From Amycolatopsis viridis (lineage in GTDB: Bacteria; Actinomycetota; Actinomycetes; Mycobacteriales; Pseudonocardiaceae): DNA of 64,000 nt. Numbering within the stretch: the first letter of the stretch is position 1; every line of letters begins with the position of its first letter. Shown here one piece after another: positions 10,895 to 51,941 of this stretch. Both the position numbers and the translations under genes were made by a program. The stretch covers positions 3,596,001 through 3,660,000 of the forward strand of contig NZ_JAANOU010000001.1 in the NCBI RefSeq assembly GCF_011758765.1. The letters run 5' to 3'. The notes beneath the pieces are model-generated. The model was given only the letters and a program-made list of their open reading frames with translations. It was not told where the DNA came from and searched no databases.

Positions 10895-11842
10895 TCAGCT
10901 GCCTGGCGGAGCCACGCCCGGCGCCGGCGACTGCGCGTTGCCCGCGATGCCGTACCGGCCGGTGCCACCGTCGAGCTGCTCCTTGAGCGCCAGCACCGTG
11001 CTGATGCGCCCGGCAGCCGTGTTCACGTTGTCCACCGTGGACAGGATCGAGGTCGCCGAGGTGTCCGCCCGCACGAACCCGATCGCGCCGGTTCCCCCGG
11101 CCGAAGCGGGGTCGCCGGCGAGCACCGCTCCGGCGCCGGACCGGTCCAGCTGCGTCGCGAACCGGGCCAGCGTCGCGGCCTTGTCCCCGGCACCGTCCCC
11201 GGTCGCCTGGCCACCGGTGAGCACCAGGGCCAGCTGGCCCGGCCCGATGCCCGGGCCGGCCTTGACGAACCCGCCGTCGGACAGGCCCGCGATCGCCGCG
11301 GCGAGCTCGTCCGGTGTGGACTGCGGCTTCGCGGTGTCCTTGTTGAGCAGCAGCACCGAACCCACCAGCGCCCCGGCCAGCGTGCCCGGGTCACCCGCGG
11401 TCGGGAAGGTCGACCCGGCGGGCTGCAGGCGGGTCACCACCTGACGCAGCTGGTCGGCCTTCACCGGGTCGGTGAAGGAGTCGGTCAGCTGCAGCTCCCC
11501 CGACACCCGCGCGCCGGAGGATTCGATGAGCTGCCGCACCGCGTCGCGGTCGGCCGGGCTCGCCTCCTGCGTGGTGATCAGCACGACCGAGCGGCGGTCC
11601 AGTGCACCGGCCACGACCTTCGGGCCGAGCGAACCGGCGAAGGCATCCGCATCAGCCAGCCGCGCGTTGAGCTCGTTGCGCTGGGCCTGCAGATCGGACA
11701 CCTGCGCGGCGAGCTTGCCCTTCTCGCCGGACAGCCCGGACAGCAGCGTGCCGTTCAGCGCCGTCGACCCGAGCACGACGCCCACGGCCAGCGCCAGGAA
11801 CACCGCCGCGATCGAGACGATGTGGTACCGCAGAGAAATCAC
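10895..11842 (-). CDS. mctB: SteB/MctB family protein (copper transport protein B; division protein SteB)
   Basis: 315 aa from a GTG that overlaps the steA stop (GTGA). An N-terminal membrane segment, IVSIAAVFLALAVGVVLGS (about residues 8-26), is followed by a coiled coil (about 40-65, GEKGKLAAQVSDLQAQRNEL) and a secreted domain. The M. tuberculosis homologue (Rv1698) has been described as copper transport protein MctB. The corynebacterial homologue SteB works with SteA in activating septal peptidoglycan hydrolase. The adjacent steA makes the division role plausible here. Both names refer to the same family, so function is not decided by sequence. Confidence 0.88.
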   Translation of the reverse strand: MISLRYHIVSIAAVFLALAVGVVLGSTALNGTLLSGLSGEKGKLAAQVSDLQAQRNELNARLADADAFAGSLGPKVVAGALDRRSVVLITTQEASPADRDAVRQLIESSGARVSGELQLTDSFTDPVKADQLRQVVTRLQPAGSTFPTAGDPGTLAGALVGSVLLLNKDTAKPQSTPDELAAAIAGLSDGGFVKAGPGIGPGQLALVLTGGQATGDGAGDKAATLARFATQLDRSGAGAVLAGDPASAGGTGAIGFVRADTSATSILSTVDNVNTAAGRISTVLALKEQLDGGTGRYGIAGNAQSPAPGVAPPGS

Positions 11843-46796: not shown

Positions 46797-48092
46797 ATGG
46801 GCGGCTGTACCCTCGACCCCGCGGCGCTGGCGGCGATCGCCGGCGAACGGCTCGACTGGCGGTTCAAGTCCCTCCCCGCCCAGCTCTGGGGCCACACCCT
46901 CGCCGACGCCGCTGCCCTGCGGCCCGGGCTGTTCACCGACGGGTTCGTCGGCCCCGTCGTCGTGCTCGAAGCCGACGCGCTGGAGCACAACCTGCGCACG
47001 ATGGCGCAGTGGTGCGCGCGGGCCGGGGTGGAACTCGCACCGCACGGCAAGACCACGATGGCGCCGCAGCTGTTCGCCCGGCAGGCCGAGCACGGCGCGT
47101 GGGGCATCACCGCTGCCAACGCCGGCCAGCTGCGCGTCTACCGCGCCTTCGGCGTGTCGCGGATCCTGCTGGCCAACGAACTGGTCGACCCGGCGGCGCT
47201 GCGCTGGCTCGGCGCGGAGCTGGACGCGCATCCGGACTTCGAGTTCAGCTGCTGGGTCGACTCGGTCCGCTCGGTCGAGCTGATGACCGAGGCGCTGCGC
47301 GGTGCGGGCCGCCCGGTCGACGTGCTGGTGGAACTGGGTGCCGACGGCGGCCGGACCGGCGCGCGCGACCTCGACACCGCGCTGGCCATCGCCGCGGCCG
47401 CGCACGCCAGCCCGGCGCTGCGCCTGGCCGGCACCGGCGGGTACGAGGGCGCGCTGGCCCACGACCCGAGCCCGGCCTCGCGACAGGTCGTCGACACCTA
47501 CCTGCGGCGGCTGCGCGAACTCACCGTCGCCATCGGCCGCCGCGGGCTGTTCGCCGACGTGGACCAGGTGATCGTCACCGCCGGCGGCAGCGCCTACTTC
47601 GACCAGGTCGCCGCCACCCTCACCGGCGACTGGGCCGGCCTGCACGTGGTGCCGGTCCTGCGCAGCGGCGCGTACCTGACCCACGACGACGGCTTCTACC
47701 GCGGCATCTCCCCACTGGGCGAGCACCCGCGGATCGCCGGGACACCGCGATTCCGCTCTGCGCTGCGCGCCTGGGCCCAGGTCACCTCCCGCCCCGCCGA
47801 CGACCTGGCGCTGCTGACCCTGGGCAAGCGCGACGCCTCCTTCGACGAGGGCCTGCCCGTACCGCAGTGGCACCGGCGCCCCGGACAGGAACCCGTGGAG
47901 CTGACCGGGCACACCGTGACCGCGCTCAACGACCAGCACGCGTTCGTCGCGCTGCCCCCGGGCTCACCGGTGCGGGTCGGCGACTGGATCGGGCTGGGCC
48001 TGTCGCACCCGTGCACGGTGTTCGACAAATGGCCGCTGCTGCCCGTGGTCGACGGCGACACCGTCGTGGACTTCGTCCGCACCTACTTCTAG
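46797..48092 (+). CDS. PLP-dependent D-amino-acid deaminase / D-threonine aldolase family protein
   Basis: 431 aa from the ATG at 46797. The alanine-racemase-like barrel has the Schiff-base Lys in APHGKTTMAP (K85). The C-terminal D-serine-dehydratase-like domain contains LNDQHAFVAL and LSHPCTVFDKW, where His and Cys usually bind zinc. Members include D-serine/D-threo-3-hydroxyaspartate dehydratases and D-threonine aldolases. A role in D-amino-acid breakdown is likely, the exact substrate unknown. Regulated by the divergent IclR protein by inference. The RidA next door would deal with an enamine product. Confidence 0.85.
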   Translation: MGGCTLDPAALAAIAGERLDWRFKSLPAQLWGHTLADAAALRPGLFTDGFVGPVVVLEADALEHNLRTMAQWCARAGVELAPHGKTTMAPQLFARQAEHGAWGITAANAGQLRVYRAFGVSRILLANELVDPAALRWLGAELDAHPDFEFSCWVDSVRSVELMTEALRGAGRPVDVLVELGADGGRTGARDLDTALAIAAAAHASPALRLAGTGGYEGALAHDPSPASRQVVDTYLRRLRELTVAIGRRGLFADVDQVIVTAGGSAYFDQVAATLTGDWAGLHVVPVLRSGAYLTHDDGFYRGISPLGEHPRIAGTPRFRSALRAWAQVTSRPADDLALLTLGKRDASFDEGLPVPQWHRRPGQEPVELTGHTVTALNDQHAFVALPPGSPVRVGDWIGLGLSHPCTVFDKWPLLPVVDGDTVVDFVRTYF

Positions 48093-48607: not shown

Positions 48608-50458
48608 ATGGTCACCACCGGCAGACGAGCCGGGCACGTCGGTGCGGTACCGGGCGCGTCCGGCGACCGGCGTCGCCGCCGGATGCTACCGCAGGCGCTC
48701 GCCGTTGCCGCACCCGTGGTCCGCCCGCACCTGCCGGCTCTGGCCGCGACCTCCGTGCTGGAACTGTTCGGGGCCGGCGTGTCCCTGCTCCGCCCGTGGC
48801 CACTGGCCCTGGCCGTCGACCACGCGATCGGCGGCAGGCCCGCCTCGGGTTTGCTGGTACGGCTCAACGGGTTTTCGCCGGCCTCCGTCCTCCTGCTCGC
48901 GGGAGCGGCGACCGTGCTGCTCAGCGTGGTCGCGGGCGTGCTGAACCTCGCCTCCACGGTGTCCGCGGAGCGCGCCGCCGAAGGCGTCGGCGCCAGGCTG
49001 CGGGAATCGGTGTTCGAGCACACGATGGAACTGTCCCTGCGGTGGCACGACCGGATGCCCAGCGGCGAGTTGCTGTCCCGCCTGACCAGCGACGTGGCCC
49101 GGATGCTGGCCGCCGTGGTCGCGGTGGCGACGATCCTCATCCCGGACACGTTCGTCCTGGTGGTGGTCCTCGTCGTACTCGCCCTGTTCGACCCCGGGCT
49201 GGCACTGGTCGGCCTCGCGGTCCTGCCGCTGCTGGTCGTCCTCGCGGTGTGGCAACGGCGCCGGGTGCGGCGCGCGCAGAACGATGCCCGTGACGCCTGG
49301 GGAAACCTGAGTGCGGTCACGAACGACCTGCTGCGCAACGTCCGCGCCGTACAGGCGTTCGGCCGCGTCGACCGCGCCCGGGAACTGTTCGCCCGGCCCA
49401 ACCGGCGGTTGCGGGACGCCGAGGTCAAGGCGGCGACGGTCTCGGCGCGCTGGAGCCCAATCGCGGACATCGTCCTGTCCCTGGGCGCGGGCCTGGTGCT
49501 GGTGATCGGCGGGCGCGCGGTGCTGTCCGGATCGCTGAGCACCGGTGATCTCCTGGTGATCCTGGCCTACCTGGGCGACATGTACTCGCCCGTGCGCAGC
49601 CTGACCCGCCTGTCCTCGGTGCTGGCCAAGGCGGGTGCCAGCGGCAAGCGCGTGGACGAGGTGCTCACCGCGTCGGAATCGGTGGCCGACGCGGCGTGGG
49701 CGCAGCCGGCCCCGGAGCGCATCGGCGAGGTCCGCTTCGCGCACGTGGGCTTCGCCTACGAGCCCGGGCACCCGGTGCTGCGCGACTTCGACCTGGTCCT
49801 GCGCGCCGGCGAAACCGTGTGCCTGCTGGGACCCAGCGGCGCGGGCAAGAGCACGGTACTGCACCTGCTGCTGCGGCTCTACGACGTCGACAGCGGCCAC
49901 ATCTTGATCAACCGCACCGACATCCGCGATCTCCGGCGGCACAGTCTCCGGCAACGGATCGCGTTCGTGCCGCAGGACCCCTGGCTCCTCGACGCGACGG
50001 TGGCGGACAACATCGCGTTCGGCGTCACGGCGGCGGACCGGGCGGCGGTCGAGGAGGCCGGACGGCAGGCCCTGGTGGACGAGTTCGTGCACACCCTGCC
50101 CCACGGCTACGACACGACGCTCGGCGAAGGTGGCGTCCGCCTCTCCGGAGGTCAGCGGCGGCGGGTGGCGCTCGCCCGGGCCGCCGTGTCCGCCGCGCCG
50201 CTGGTGCTGCTGGACGAGCCGACGGCTTCGCTCGACCCGGTCTCGTCCGCGACGGTCGTCCAGGCGATCCGCGGCGCCACCGCCCACCGGACCGTTCTCA
50301 TCGTGACGCACGACCGGGACCTGGCGGCGATCGCCGACCGGGTCGTCGTGCTCGACCGGGACCCGCAACAACCGCACGGAAACGGGAGAGGAGGTGAACC
50401 TCATGCTGCTGATCAAAGGCCCGATGTCCTACCGCAAGCACGGGCACAAGCACGGTAA
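48608..50458 (+). CDS. ABC transporter, fused permease and ATPase (exporter type)
   Basis: 616 aa from the ATG at 48608 with GGGAGG 8 nt upstream. Six membrane helices lie in residues about 40-310. The nucleotide-binding domain has Walker A GPSGAGKST (408-416), signature RLSGGQRRRVALARA, Walker B PLVLLDEPTASLD and the H-loop in LIVTHDRDL. This is a type I half-exporter likely to work as a homodimer. There is no N-terminal C39 peptidase domain. Its last 19 codons overlap, in another frame, a 35-codon ORF (50403-50510). A Ser/Thr kinase follows. The likely cargo is that peptide (inference). Confidence 0.93.
   Translation: MVTTGRRAGHVGAVPGASGDRRRRRMLPQALAVAAPVVRPHLPALAATSVLELFGAGVSLLRPWPLALAVDHAIGGRPASGLLVRLNGFSPASVLLLAGAATVLLSVVAGVLNLASTVSAERAAEGVGARLRESVFEHTMELSLRWHDRMPSGELLSRLTSDVARMLAAVVAVATILIPDTFVLVVVLVVLALFDPGLALVGLAVLPLLVVLAVWQRRRVRRAQNDARDAWGNLSAVTNDLLRNVRAVQAFGRVDRARELFARPNRRLRDAEVKAATVSARWSPIADIVLSLGAGLVLVIGGRAVLSGSLSTGDLLVILAYLGDMYSPVRSLTRLSSVLAKAGASGKRVDEVLTASESVADAAWAQPAPERIGEVRFAHVGFAYEPGHPVLRDFDLVLRAGETVCLLGPSGAGKSTVLHLLLRLYDVDSGHILINRTDIRDLRRHSLRQRIAFVPQDPWLLDATVADNIAFGVTAADRAAVEEAGRQALVDEFVHTLPHGYDTTLGEGGVRLSGGQRRRVALARAAVSAAPLVLLDEPTASLDPVSSATVVQAIRGATAHRTVLIVTHDRDLAAIADRVVVLDRDPQQPHGNGRGGEPHAADQRPDVLPQARAQAR
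50390..50397 (+). promoter_or_regulatory. Perfect Shine-Dalgarno site for the 35-aa peptide
   Basis: GGAGGTGA lies inside the ABC coding region, 5 nt before the ATG at 50403. It is an eight-base exact complement to the 3' end (TCACCTCC) of the 16S rRNA in this window, making translation of the small frame very likely. Confidence 0.85.
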
Positions 50459-50510
50459 GCACACCGGCAAGACCACTCGCACGACCCGGACCAGCCGTTC
50501 GCGTTGCTGA
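50403..50510 (+). CDS. 35-residue cationic His/Thr-rich peptide
   Basis: 35 codons, starting MLLIKGPMSYRKHGHKHG and ending with a tail made of Lys, Thr, Arg and Ser with Cys35 as last residue. It has ten Lys/Arg, four His, six Thr (positions 21, 24, 25, 27, 28, 30), three Ser (9, 31, 33) and no acidic residue. The hydrophobic start is only five residues, so it is not a signal peptide. It overlaps the end of the ABC exporter gene and precedes the kinase by 69 bp. The strong Shine-Dalgarno sequence and operon position argue for a real product. It may be an exported or kinase-modified peptide; I recognise no known family. Confidence 0.75.
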   Translation: MLLIKGPMSYRKHGHKHGKHTGKTTRTTRTSRSRC

Positions 50511-50579
50511 TACCGGTATCGATGACCTGGCGGCCCGCGCTCCGGCGCGGGTCGCCGGGCTCCGGTCGGAAGGACAGGC

Positions 50580-51407
50580 ATGAGCGAAGCCGCGCTCGAC
50601 GACGACGGCGAACCGGTGTGGGACATGGCGGAGGGCGCCGAGTGCCCCGGCCGGACCCGCGCGGTGCGCCGGCTCGGGGTGGGCTGGCGCTGCGAGACCT
50701 GGCTCGTGTGGTCGGTCCCGCTGTGGTGCCCGATGGTGCTGAAACTTCCGCGCCCGCACATGCGCGAGCACCCGCGCGCGGTACGTGCGTTGCGGCGGGA
50801 GGTGGCGGCGCTTTCCGGGCCACCGCACCCGGGGCTGCCGAGGCTGATCACGGACGGTACCGCCGAACCCTTGCCCCACCTGCTCTTCGAGTACCTCGAT
50901 GGTCCCGACCTCGACGACGTCCTCGACGAGGTCGGCCCGCTGGCCGGTGCCGAGGCGGCATTGCTGGGGGTGCAGCTGCTGTCGGCGGTGGCGGCGGTGC
51001 ACCGGGAAGGCCTGGCGCACCTGGACGTCAAGCCAGGCAACGTCGTCCTGCGCGACGGCAAACCGGTCCTCATCGACTTCGGCAGCGCACGCGCGCTCGG
51101 ATCGCCCCAACCACCGGGACATCCGATCGGGACCCGTGGCTACACATCCCCCGAGCAGGAGGCGTGCCTGACGGTGTCACCGGGGATGGACGTCTACGGG
51201 GTCGGGGCGACCCTGCACGCGGTCGTGACCGGGCACCGGCCGGGAACGGGCGGCCAGCCCTGCCCGCCGATGCTGGCGGGACTGCTCGCGACCGATCCGG
51301 CGCGGCGCCTGGACGTCAGCGACGCGATCGCCGCGCTCCTCGAGTGGATTCCGGCCGAGTTCCGGCCGTGGCCGGAGTGGGCCGACGCCTACCTCGGTGG
51401 AGCGTGA
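50580..51407 (+). CDS. Stand-alone eukaryotic-like Ser/Thr protein kinase
   Basis: 275 aa from the ATG at 50580 with GGAAGGAC upstream. The kinase core is complete: glycine loop RLGVGWRCETWLV, K55 in MVLKLP, E74, catalytic HLDVKPGNVVL (147-157, D149), DFG at 166-168, and activation/APE region GTRGYTSPEQ. No transmembrane helix, PASTA, lyase or LanC-like cyclase domain follows, unlike cell-wall PknB-type kinases or class III/IV lanthipeptide synthetases. Same operon as the exporter and the Thr-rich peptide, which is the obvious candidate substrate (inference). Confidence 0.88.
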   Translation: MSEAALDDDGEPVWDMAEGAECPGRTRAVRRLGVGWRCETWLVWSVPLWCPMVLKLPRPHMREHPRAVRALRREVAALSGPPHPGLPRLITDGTAEPLPHLLFEYLDGPDLDDVLDEVGPLAGAEAALLGVQLLSAVAAVHREGLAHLDVKPGNVVLRDGKPVLIDFGSARALGSPQPPGHPIGTRGYTSPEQEACLTVSPGMDVYGVGATLHAVVTGHRPGTGGQPCPPMLAGLLATDPARRLDVSDAIAALLEWIPAEFRPWPEWADAYLGGA

Positions 51408-51428: not shown

Positions 51429-51941
51429 TCAGATCCGGCGGGCGTTGTGGAAGGGCATGCCGGCCATCGAGGAGATCTTCACCGGCTGACCGGCGGTGCT
51501 GGCGTGCACGATCTTGCCGTCGCCGACGTAGATGCCGACGTGGCTGACCGGCGTGTAGAAGAACACCAGGTCACCGGGCCGCAGCTGGGACAGCGCGACC
51601 GGGGTGCCCATCGTGGACTGAGCGCGGGAGCTGTGCGGGAGGTTCACCCCGGCCTGCTTGAAGGCCCACTGGACGAGGCCGGAGCAGTCGTAGGCGTTGG
51701 GACCCGCGGCACCCCAGACGTAGGGCTTGCCCAGCTGGGTGAGCGCGTCGCGCAGGGCGGTCGCGCCGACGCTGGTGCCGCTGATCGAGGCCGGCGCGAC
51801 GGCCGGTGCGGTGTCGGTCGGGGCGGCCGTGCTGGCGAACGCCGGGCCGGCAGCACCGGCGAGCGCGGCCGCCAGCACGGCGCTGGTGACACCGGCGCGC
51901 AGGAGTGTGCGGCCGGACTTCGGCTGCGAGGACTGTCGCAT
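51429..51941 (-). CDS. Secreted NlpC/P60 cell-wall hydrolase
   Basis: 170 aa. Signal peptide (LLRAGVTSAVLAAALAGAAG, cleavage near 37) and a short linker precede one NlpC/P60 domain: YVWGAAGPNAYDCSGLVQWA (nucleophile C86), SHVGIYVGDGKIVHAS (H134 and H146 region). It would cut stem peptides of peptidoglycan (D-Glu/mDAP bond). There is no SH3 or coiled-coil domain. Convergent with the kinase gene. A Crp/GlxR-like site lies at 52094-52109 in its upstream region. Confidence 0.92.
   Translation of the reverse strand: MRQSSQPKSGRTLLRAGVTSAVLAAALAGAAGPAFASTAAPTDTAPAVAPASISGTSVGATALRDALTQLGKPYVWGAAGPNAYDCSGLVQWAFKQAGVNLPHSSRAQSTMGTPVALSQLRPGDLVFFYTPVSHVGIYVGDGKIVHASTAGQPVKISSMAGMPFHNARRI

Follow-up and report, generated by a model that had tools for sequence, protein, structure and literature searches.

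An ABC exporter, a short basic peptide and a lone Ser/Thr kinase in one operon of Amycolatopsis viridis suggest an exported and probably phosphorylated peptide of a kind not yet described

Gene content of the operon

A stretch of 64,000 nucleotides from Amycolatopsis viridis (NCBI RefSeq assembly GCF_011758765.1, contig NZ_JAANOU010000001.1, positions 3,596,001 to 3,660,000 of the forward strand), hereafter called the window, carries a compact operon of three genes encoding an ATP-binding cassette (ABC) exporter, a very small basic peptide and a Ser/Thr protein kinase. An earlier note, made from the letters of the window alone, had placed these genes on the forward strand and proposed that they might form a new system in which a peptide is modified by the kinase and exported. 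The ABC, peptide and kinase genes were all located, and the operon has the following features:

48608..50458, forward strand: half-size ABC exporter, with the transmembrane domain fused to the ATPase (open reading frame, Pfam domains, tree)
50389..50397, forward strand: Shine-Dalgarno sequence of the peptide, AGGAGGTGA, inside the 3′ end of the ABC gene (sequence)
50403..50510, forward strand: basic peptide of 35 amino acids with the C-terminus TTRTTRTSRSRC; proposed substrate of the kinase and exported product
50526..50559, forward strand: hairpin with a 15-bp stem, between the peptide stop codon and the kinase gene (RNA fold)
50580..51407, forward strand: single-domain Ser/Thr protein kinase with an HLDVKPGN loop and intact catalytic residues

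The ABC gene starts with the ATG at 48608 and its stop codon ends at 50458. Its product has the two Pfam domains expected of the half-type exporter that had been predicted (ABC_membrane, E 7e-43; ABC_tran, E 1e-31), and no Pfam match to the C39 peptidase domain of C39-type transporters was found in it. The kinase is likewise complete and single-domain as described, with 275 amino acids, matches to kinase-type domains alone (Pfam Pkinase, E 2e-23) and an intact catalytic apparatus. No Rfam family matched between 48000 and 51500 at E values up to 1.

The peptide gene runs from the ATG at 50403 to a stop codon ending at 50510 and encodes 35 amino acids, MLLIKGPMSYRKHGHKHGKHTGKTTRTTRTSRSRC. It overlaps the 3′ end of the ABC gene by 56 nt, and AGGAGGTGA sits 5 nt ahead of its start codon. 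A direct count gave the composition reported earlier (10 Lys/Arg, 4 His, 9 Ser/Thr and 1 Cys), the sole Cys being the very C-terminal residue. The trait that recurs in related loci is, instead of a richness in Thr and His, mostly Arg alternating with Ser or Thr, or runs of Arg. Neither this peptide nor four others compared with it (L006, L008, L017 and L063) belonged to a Pfam or NCBIfam family at E 0.01.

Recurrence of the three genes in other genomes

The exporter and the kinase are adjacent in 25 genomes, and a tiny basic peptide is also encoded in 23 of them. Exporter-kinase loci devoid of a conserved small open reading frame, which the earlier note had named as the observation that would speak against it, were therefore not what was found; the association of exporter, kinase and peptide is strong, and the finding extends beyond what the note had described. 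Since all loci were collected by means of the kinase and not of the peptide, the latter offers an observation independent of the search. The proposal of a new kinase, exporter and peptide system is supported by this recurrence, with phosphorylation and export as its inferred part.

Two layouts were distinguished. In group A (ABC-peptide-kinase) all 11 genomes have a small open reading frame for 25 to 46 amino acids where the ABC gene ends; they are those of the window, G001, G003, G015, G083, G127, G140, G746, Microlunatus flavus (L006), an uncultured actinobacterium (L007) and a Marmoricola (L008); such a recurrence is more than chance. A Shine-Dalgarno-like site precedes the peptide in all 10 group A rows compared, including that of the window. 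Many of these peptides end in RSRSRS or RTRTRT; their C-termini include RSRSRSRSRSYSRSRSRY (Microlunatus flavus), SRSRSRSRSRSRD, RTRTRTRTRTRG and RTRTRSRSRSRSRSHG, and one peptide of 25 amino acids consists mostly of RT and RS repeats. Cys is absent from six of the 10 rows and occurs once in two, with two residues in L087 and three in L122. In L006 and L141 the serines are coded by both TCN and AGC codons, which indicates that the repeat is kept at the protein level. Between the window and G003 the peptide genes differ by six silent changes and four replacements (K/R twice, G/S and T/S), so that the proportion of replacement differences (pN) is 0.063 and that of silent differences (pS) 0.27; the sites are few, and the comparison favours a translated gene.

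The 14 genomes of group B (peptide-ABC-kinase) include those of two Solirubrobacter species and of Streptomyces mashuensis; 12 of the 14 carry one or two peptides of 35 to 48 amino acids upstream of the ABC gene. A typical group B peptide has an N-terminus resembling MAxFSxxxPA, Ser/Thr residues near Asp or Asn, a run of 6 to 14 Arg/Lys and a Ser/Thr tail. The conservation expected of the peptide by the earlier note held in part: the sequence itself is kept among close relatives only, whereas the basic, mostly Arg-repeat composition is kept across families. Tandem, diverged poly-Arg peptide genes occur at L130 (5740-6082) and on the reverse strand at L133 (5866-6130). At L063, from Streptomyces mashuensis, a small open reading frame about 0.7 kb past the kinase (11490-11600) has the look of what we take to be a lasso-peptide precursor, and a second ABC gene lies beyond it.

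We compared the peptides with a pool of small open reading frames from 113 non-nested loci (1.72 Mb), chosen out of 154 sequences. This pool held 25,529 starts of frames of 20 to 60 amino acids, 1,634 of them with a Shine-Dalgarno sequence of at least 5 nt and 41 with a repeat of the type (S/T-R)4, (R-S/T)4 or R7. Both properties were combined in 19 starts, corresponding to 17 distinct frames, of which 16 were operon peptides and one was not. The rule is a strict one that passes over several operon peptides, including that of the window.

The kinase searches behind these counts differed in breadth. A search with the kinase of the window matched 5 of 100 genomes at E ≤ 1e-30 and, at E ≤ 1e-40, 4 of the 19 genomes of the genus, the window's own included, from which we regard the operon as accessory. 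A scan of genome contigs supplied the best 80 of 280 loci, of which we sorted 70 as ordinary kinases. A kinase profile matched 256 of 396 genomes of the phylum (E ≤ 1e-45, up to six candidates scored per genome); 29 new loci (L091-L119) were examined, 14 of them with an ABC gene within 1.5 kb, and because follow-up covered these 29 the family size is a lower bound. At the level of the class, 2 of 394 genomes matched, namely G746 and that of the window; in the family of G746 2 of 245 did so (G746 and G920, the latter with the same stretch as L008), and in the class of G125 11 of 39, all already in the phylum scan. Rows for the same locus were merged (L120 and the contig of G112 with L007; L142, from G920, with the stretch of L008; G222:C244, L103 and L136 with L009). 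L130 and L133 contribute two peptide copies each, and L129, whose contig lacks the 5′ part of the ABC gene, was scored as a miss.

The exporters tell a similar story to the kinases. In the exporter tree group A forms a clade (98/98, eight exporters) against group B and seven other ABC proteins of the loci, group B forms another (93/99), and the main branching of group A is alike in the exporter and kinase trees; L141 and L129 were left out, L121 was entered but yielded no row that could be used, and some of the outgroup branches are very long. Gene maps of 11 loci, inspected by eye, showed no additional recurring neighbour (protease, cyclase or immunity gene), the neighbours not having been searched against Pfam and the maps coming from a crude codon-composition caller that missed some true genes, the ABC gene of L006 among them. 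The genes that flank the operon in the window are presumably an NlpC/P60-type secreted protein (51429-51941, reverse strand) and an amino-acid racemase or aldolase-like enzyme (46797-48092, forward strand); both seem to lie outside the unit.

The hairpin after the peptide gene

The 75 nt past the stop codon of the window peptide fold with -41.6 kcal/mol (z -3.0). The predicted hairpin reaches z ≤ -2.0 (rounded) in nine of the 10 rows of group A, and in 8 of 15 copies of the peptide gene outside it (group B and L126). Nothing notable by fold was seen in the two Solirubrobacter rows or after the first L133 copy; at L133 the strong stem follows the second copy only, and at L130 the stem is weak by z after both. 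The stem lies ahead of the kinase gene in group A and mostly ahead of the ABC gene in group B. Between the window and G003 it differs by one C-G to T-A exchange in our reading of the alignment. We propose that the hairpin favours the peptide message and keeps the peptide in excess over the kinase.

The kinase clade and its exporter-less members

In an alignment of 10 kinases, Lys55, Glu74, His147, Asp149, Lys151, Asn154 and Asp166 are invariant, and Leu148 is replaced by Arg in one. The AlphaFold2 model of the window kinase has a mean predicted local distance difference test score (pLDDT) of 88.2, and the nearest fold in the PDB is that of Mycobacterium tuberculosis PknB; by sequence, too, the kinase is nearest to PknB. 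No PASTA domain was found by Pfam in its 275 amino acids, so it does not qualify as a PASTA kinase, and the NF033483 model matches it with 99 bits (cut-off 450) in the kinase part only. The models of the lanthipeptide synthetases LanL (E 9e-22, 77 bits, cut-off 650) and LanKC (41 bits, cut-off 575) also match the kinase part alone. In a tree of 61 kinase domains, the kinases of groups A and B and of a third group, C, cluster at 100/97 away from 20 control kinases, which we picked from 71 other kinase loci (the 70 above and L119); group A is supported at 96/92 and group B at 100/95.

Group C kinases have no window-like exporter alongside. In our reading of the translations, 13 of 16 distinct group C loci adjoin a low-complexity, Ser/Thr-rich polypeptide (L010, L011, L102, L103, L106, L109 and L111-L117). 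In these partners, which reach about 280 amino acids, Ser/Thr is accompanied by Arg, Asp, Asn, Gly or Ala, and most have an Asp-rich stretch together with a signal or membrane segment; L106 showed no signal segment, and the frame of the L114 partner is interrupted in the assembly. Among the loci counted without a partner, the neighbour at L108 is acidic and Ser/Thr-poor, L107 runs off its contig, and no partner was found at L013. An automatic detector found partners at 6 of 16 group C loci versus 1 of 70 ordinary-kinase control loci, in a comparison unmatched for base composition since many controls come from other phyla. Partner polypeptides lie at L010 (9362-9946) and L135 (7051-7575), as well as at L111, L112 and other group C loci, and together with their kinases they are possibly an unnamed family of kinase-partner pairs.

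Comparison with known systems

Among the matches listed in the open-licence PubMed Central literature, considered by title and start of abstract and with preprints outside the search, no description of an operon of this kind was found. In the broad sense of ribosomally synthesised and post-translationally modified peptides, 23 of the 25 genomes have a unit of precursor, candidate modifying enzyme and exporter, the kinase being the presumed modifier.

Class III and IV lanthipeptide systems also have an exporter. They share with the present operon a precursor peptide made on the ribosome and a kinase domain for Ser/Thr, and in LanKC-type enzymes this domain phosphorylates Ser/Thr of a small peptide ahead of lyase and cyclase steps, according to the abstract of PMC10604976. 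However, the earlier note had already pointed out that no lyase or cyclase domain is present, and this holds in all three genes, with no extra gene recurring in the 11 mapped loci. Because the kinase carries neither a lyase nor a LanC-like cyclase domain and Cys is missing from most peptides, membership in class III/IV was rejected. The window kinase stands alone, the peptide cores are mostly Arg repeats, and in group A the precursor gene overlaps the exporter gene. The class V systems are alike in having separate kinase and kinase-fold proteins that act on a ribosomal peptide (RosK kinase, RosY lyase and RosX kinase-fold cyclase, as given in the abstract of PMC12291118), but here no lyase gene was seen alongside, the catalytic residues are intact and ring-forming Cys is absent from most peptides.

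Several partner peptides, with their Arg-Ser repeats paired with a kinase, may be likened to eukaryotic serine/arginine-rich (SR) proteins and their kinases; phosphorylation by SRPK2 lowers the oligomerisation of the Arg-rich SRSF2, as reported in the abstract of PMC8569591. Unlike SR proteins, those described here are free bacterial peptides of 25 to 46 amino acids with an exporter, and since the kinase is PknB-like by fold search, the likeness to SR protein kinases would be convergent at most. Silaffins of diatoms are exported, basic, Ser-rich peptides bearing many phosphates, but they are eukaryotic and mineral-forming. The kinase shares its domain family with PknB-type Ser/Thr kinases and the PD-T4-6 defence kinase, from which it differs by the lack of a detected PASTA domain, a clade apart from the 20 controls and linkage to a small-peptide gene and an exporter. 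A role as a defence kinase was rejected: the PD-T4-6 and MAD6 models match as expected for kinase-domain models, and exporter and peptide do not fit.

Interpretation

In the three layouts the common factor is a kinase beside a repetitive, usually Ser/Thr-rich polypeptide with an exporter or export signal, and we therefore take the kinase to be the modifier of that polypeptide. The ABC protein is taken as an exporter of small peptides because of its family and its adjacency. On balance, the operon probably encodes a kinase-modified, exported peptide system. It would yield a short, strongly basic, low-complexity peptide whose Ser/Thr residues the kinase would phosphorylate in the cytosol, ahead of export by the ABC protein. 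By analogy with SR-protein kinases acting on eukaryotic Arg/Ser-repeat proteins, phosphates between arginines could balance the charge of a peptide that as a polycation might adhere to membranes, RNA and DNA, so that it can be stored and exported, and the hairpin past the peptide gene would ensure that there is more peptide than enzyme. Once exported, the product may serve as a charge-patterned molecule that binds surfaces or polymers, or may be dephosphorylated into an active cation. A wider reading, to which we give slightly less than even weight, would see a bacterial kinase clade dedicated to exported low-complexity Ser/Thr polypeptides, one branch working with long Ser/Thr-Arg/Asp/Gly-rich proteins that mostly have a signal or membrane segment and two branches with peptides of 25 to 48 amino acids, mostly Arg-Ser, Arg-Thr or poly-Arg, and an exporter of their own; the products would be hyperphosphorylated, of alternating charge and convergent with SR domains, protamines and silaffins.

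Several observations weigh against such a system. The operon is accessory within the genus, as given above. Pairs of [S/T][R/K] exceed shuffled composition (P < 0.05) in just 5 of 10 group A rows, that of the window not among them (P 0.23), and spaced Ser/Thr exceed composition in 4 of the 15 copies of group B and L126. Two group A peptides depart from the pattern, that of L087 being rich in Arg, Trp and Tyr with three Ser and no Thr besides its two Cys, and that of L122 being rich in Ser, Thr and Cys, poor in Arg and of net charge +4. In group B, L128 carries a Trp/Asn/Gly-repeat frame in place of the Arg-rich peptide, and no peptide was found at L129, where the 5′ part of the ABC gene is missing from the contig; L126 (7711-8669) has peptide and kinase with no adjacent exporter, and no peptide or secreted partner was found at L013, which is basal to group B. 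With z above -2.0, the hairpin is weak or absent in one group A row out of 10 and in seven of the 15 other copies. The group C partner presumably leaves by the Sec route, which makes cytosolic phosphorylation less simple. We also considered acidity of the kinase as a sign of polycation binding and dropped it, since the net charge and pI of group A and B kinases (n = 10) overlap those of 12 exporter-less relatives and the former are no more acidic.

Two of these loci call for a further remark. The frame at L128 encodes 69 amino acids (WNGNWGGNWGGNWNWGG) on the reverse strand (60-269), upstream of the ABC and kinase genes; behind it a GC-rich stem that carries a T run was recognised by eye. L127, from a congener of the L126 genome, has all three genes.

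Other explanations would give the peptide or the kinase a different part. If the peptide were a cationic antimicrobial, the kinase would protect its own cell by inactivating the peptide or modifying the cell's own target, and would not mature the product; highly cationic small peptides beside an exporter fit a bacteriocin, as does the accessory distribution in 4 of 19 genomes of the genus, but no separate immunity gene recurs in the 11 mapped loci and the partners of the group C kinases are long, often rich in Asp and hardly what one would expect of a bacteriocin, so that we hold this to be unlikely. The small frame could instead be a cis-acting leader peptide, with ribosome progress over the Arg codons controlling the hairpin and hence the downstream genes. 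A hairpin does follow the frame in many loci, in some with a T run (L087, L131 and L134), and in group B the poly-Arg codons upstream of the ABC and kinase genes resemble an attenuator. However, in group A the ABC gene lies ahead of the frame, and the kinase gene alone lies behind the hairpin; Ser drawn from two codon families alternates with Arg in L006 and L141; most group B copies have the MAxFSxxxPA-like N-terminus and the Ser/Thr tail, both needless for attenuation; the tandem copies have a strong stem after the second only (L133) or weak ones after both (L130); and partners at related kinase loci of group C reach about 280 amino acids. Position, codon use and N-terminal conservation thus fit an attenuator poorly, and we consider it rather unlikely.

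A regulatory kinase that acts on the exporter or on other cell proteins, the peptide being an accessory or coupling factor of the transporter, would suit its nearness to PknB, a regulatory kinase, by sequence and fold, as well as the adjacent exporter in groups A and B, though that adjacency is part of their definition; yet the exporter-less group C kinases mostly adjoin low-complexity Ser/Thr-rich polypeptides and L126 retains peptide and kinase without the exporter alongside, which makes it quite improbable. It seems more improbable still that a lyase encoded elsewhere makes dehydro-residues from phospho-Ser/Thr, with rings optional. The match of the kinase domain of class IV LanL to the window kinase and the Cys residues in the L087 and L122 peptides are in keeping with such a lanthipeptide-like product, whereas the three genes have no lyase or cyclase, no further gene recurs in the mapped loci, and the other eight group A rows have one Cys (two rows) or none.

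Should the reading of a kinase-modified, exported peptide be right, bacteria would make and export Arg-Ser repeat phosphopeptides with three genes dedicated to the task; such chemistry is familiar chiefly from the splicing factors of eukaryotes, from protamines and from the silaffins of diatoms. A set of three genes is small enough for the system to be directly testable. A lone kinase beside a repetitive Ser/Thr polypeptide would become a rule for genome mining that is independent of cysteines and cyclases, and bacterial eukaryotic-like kinases would gain a new role, that of modifying an exported product instead of signalling.

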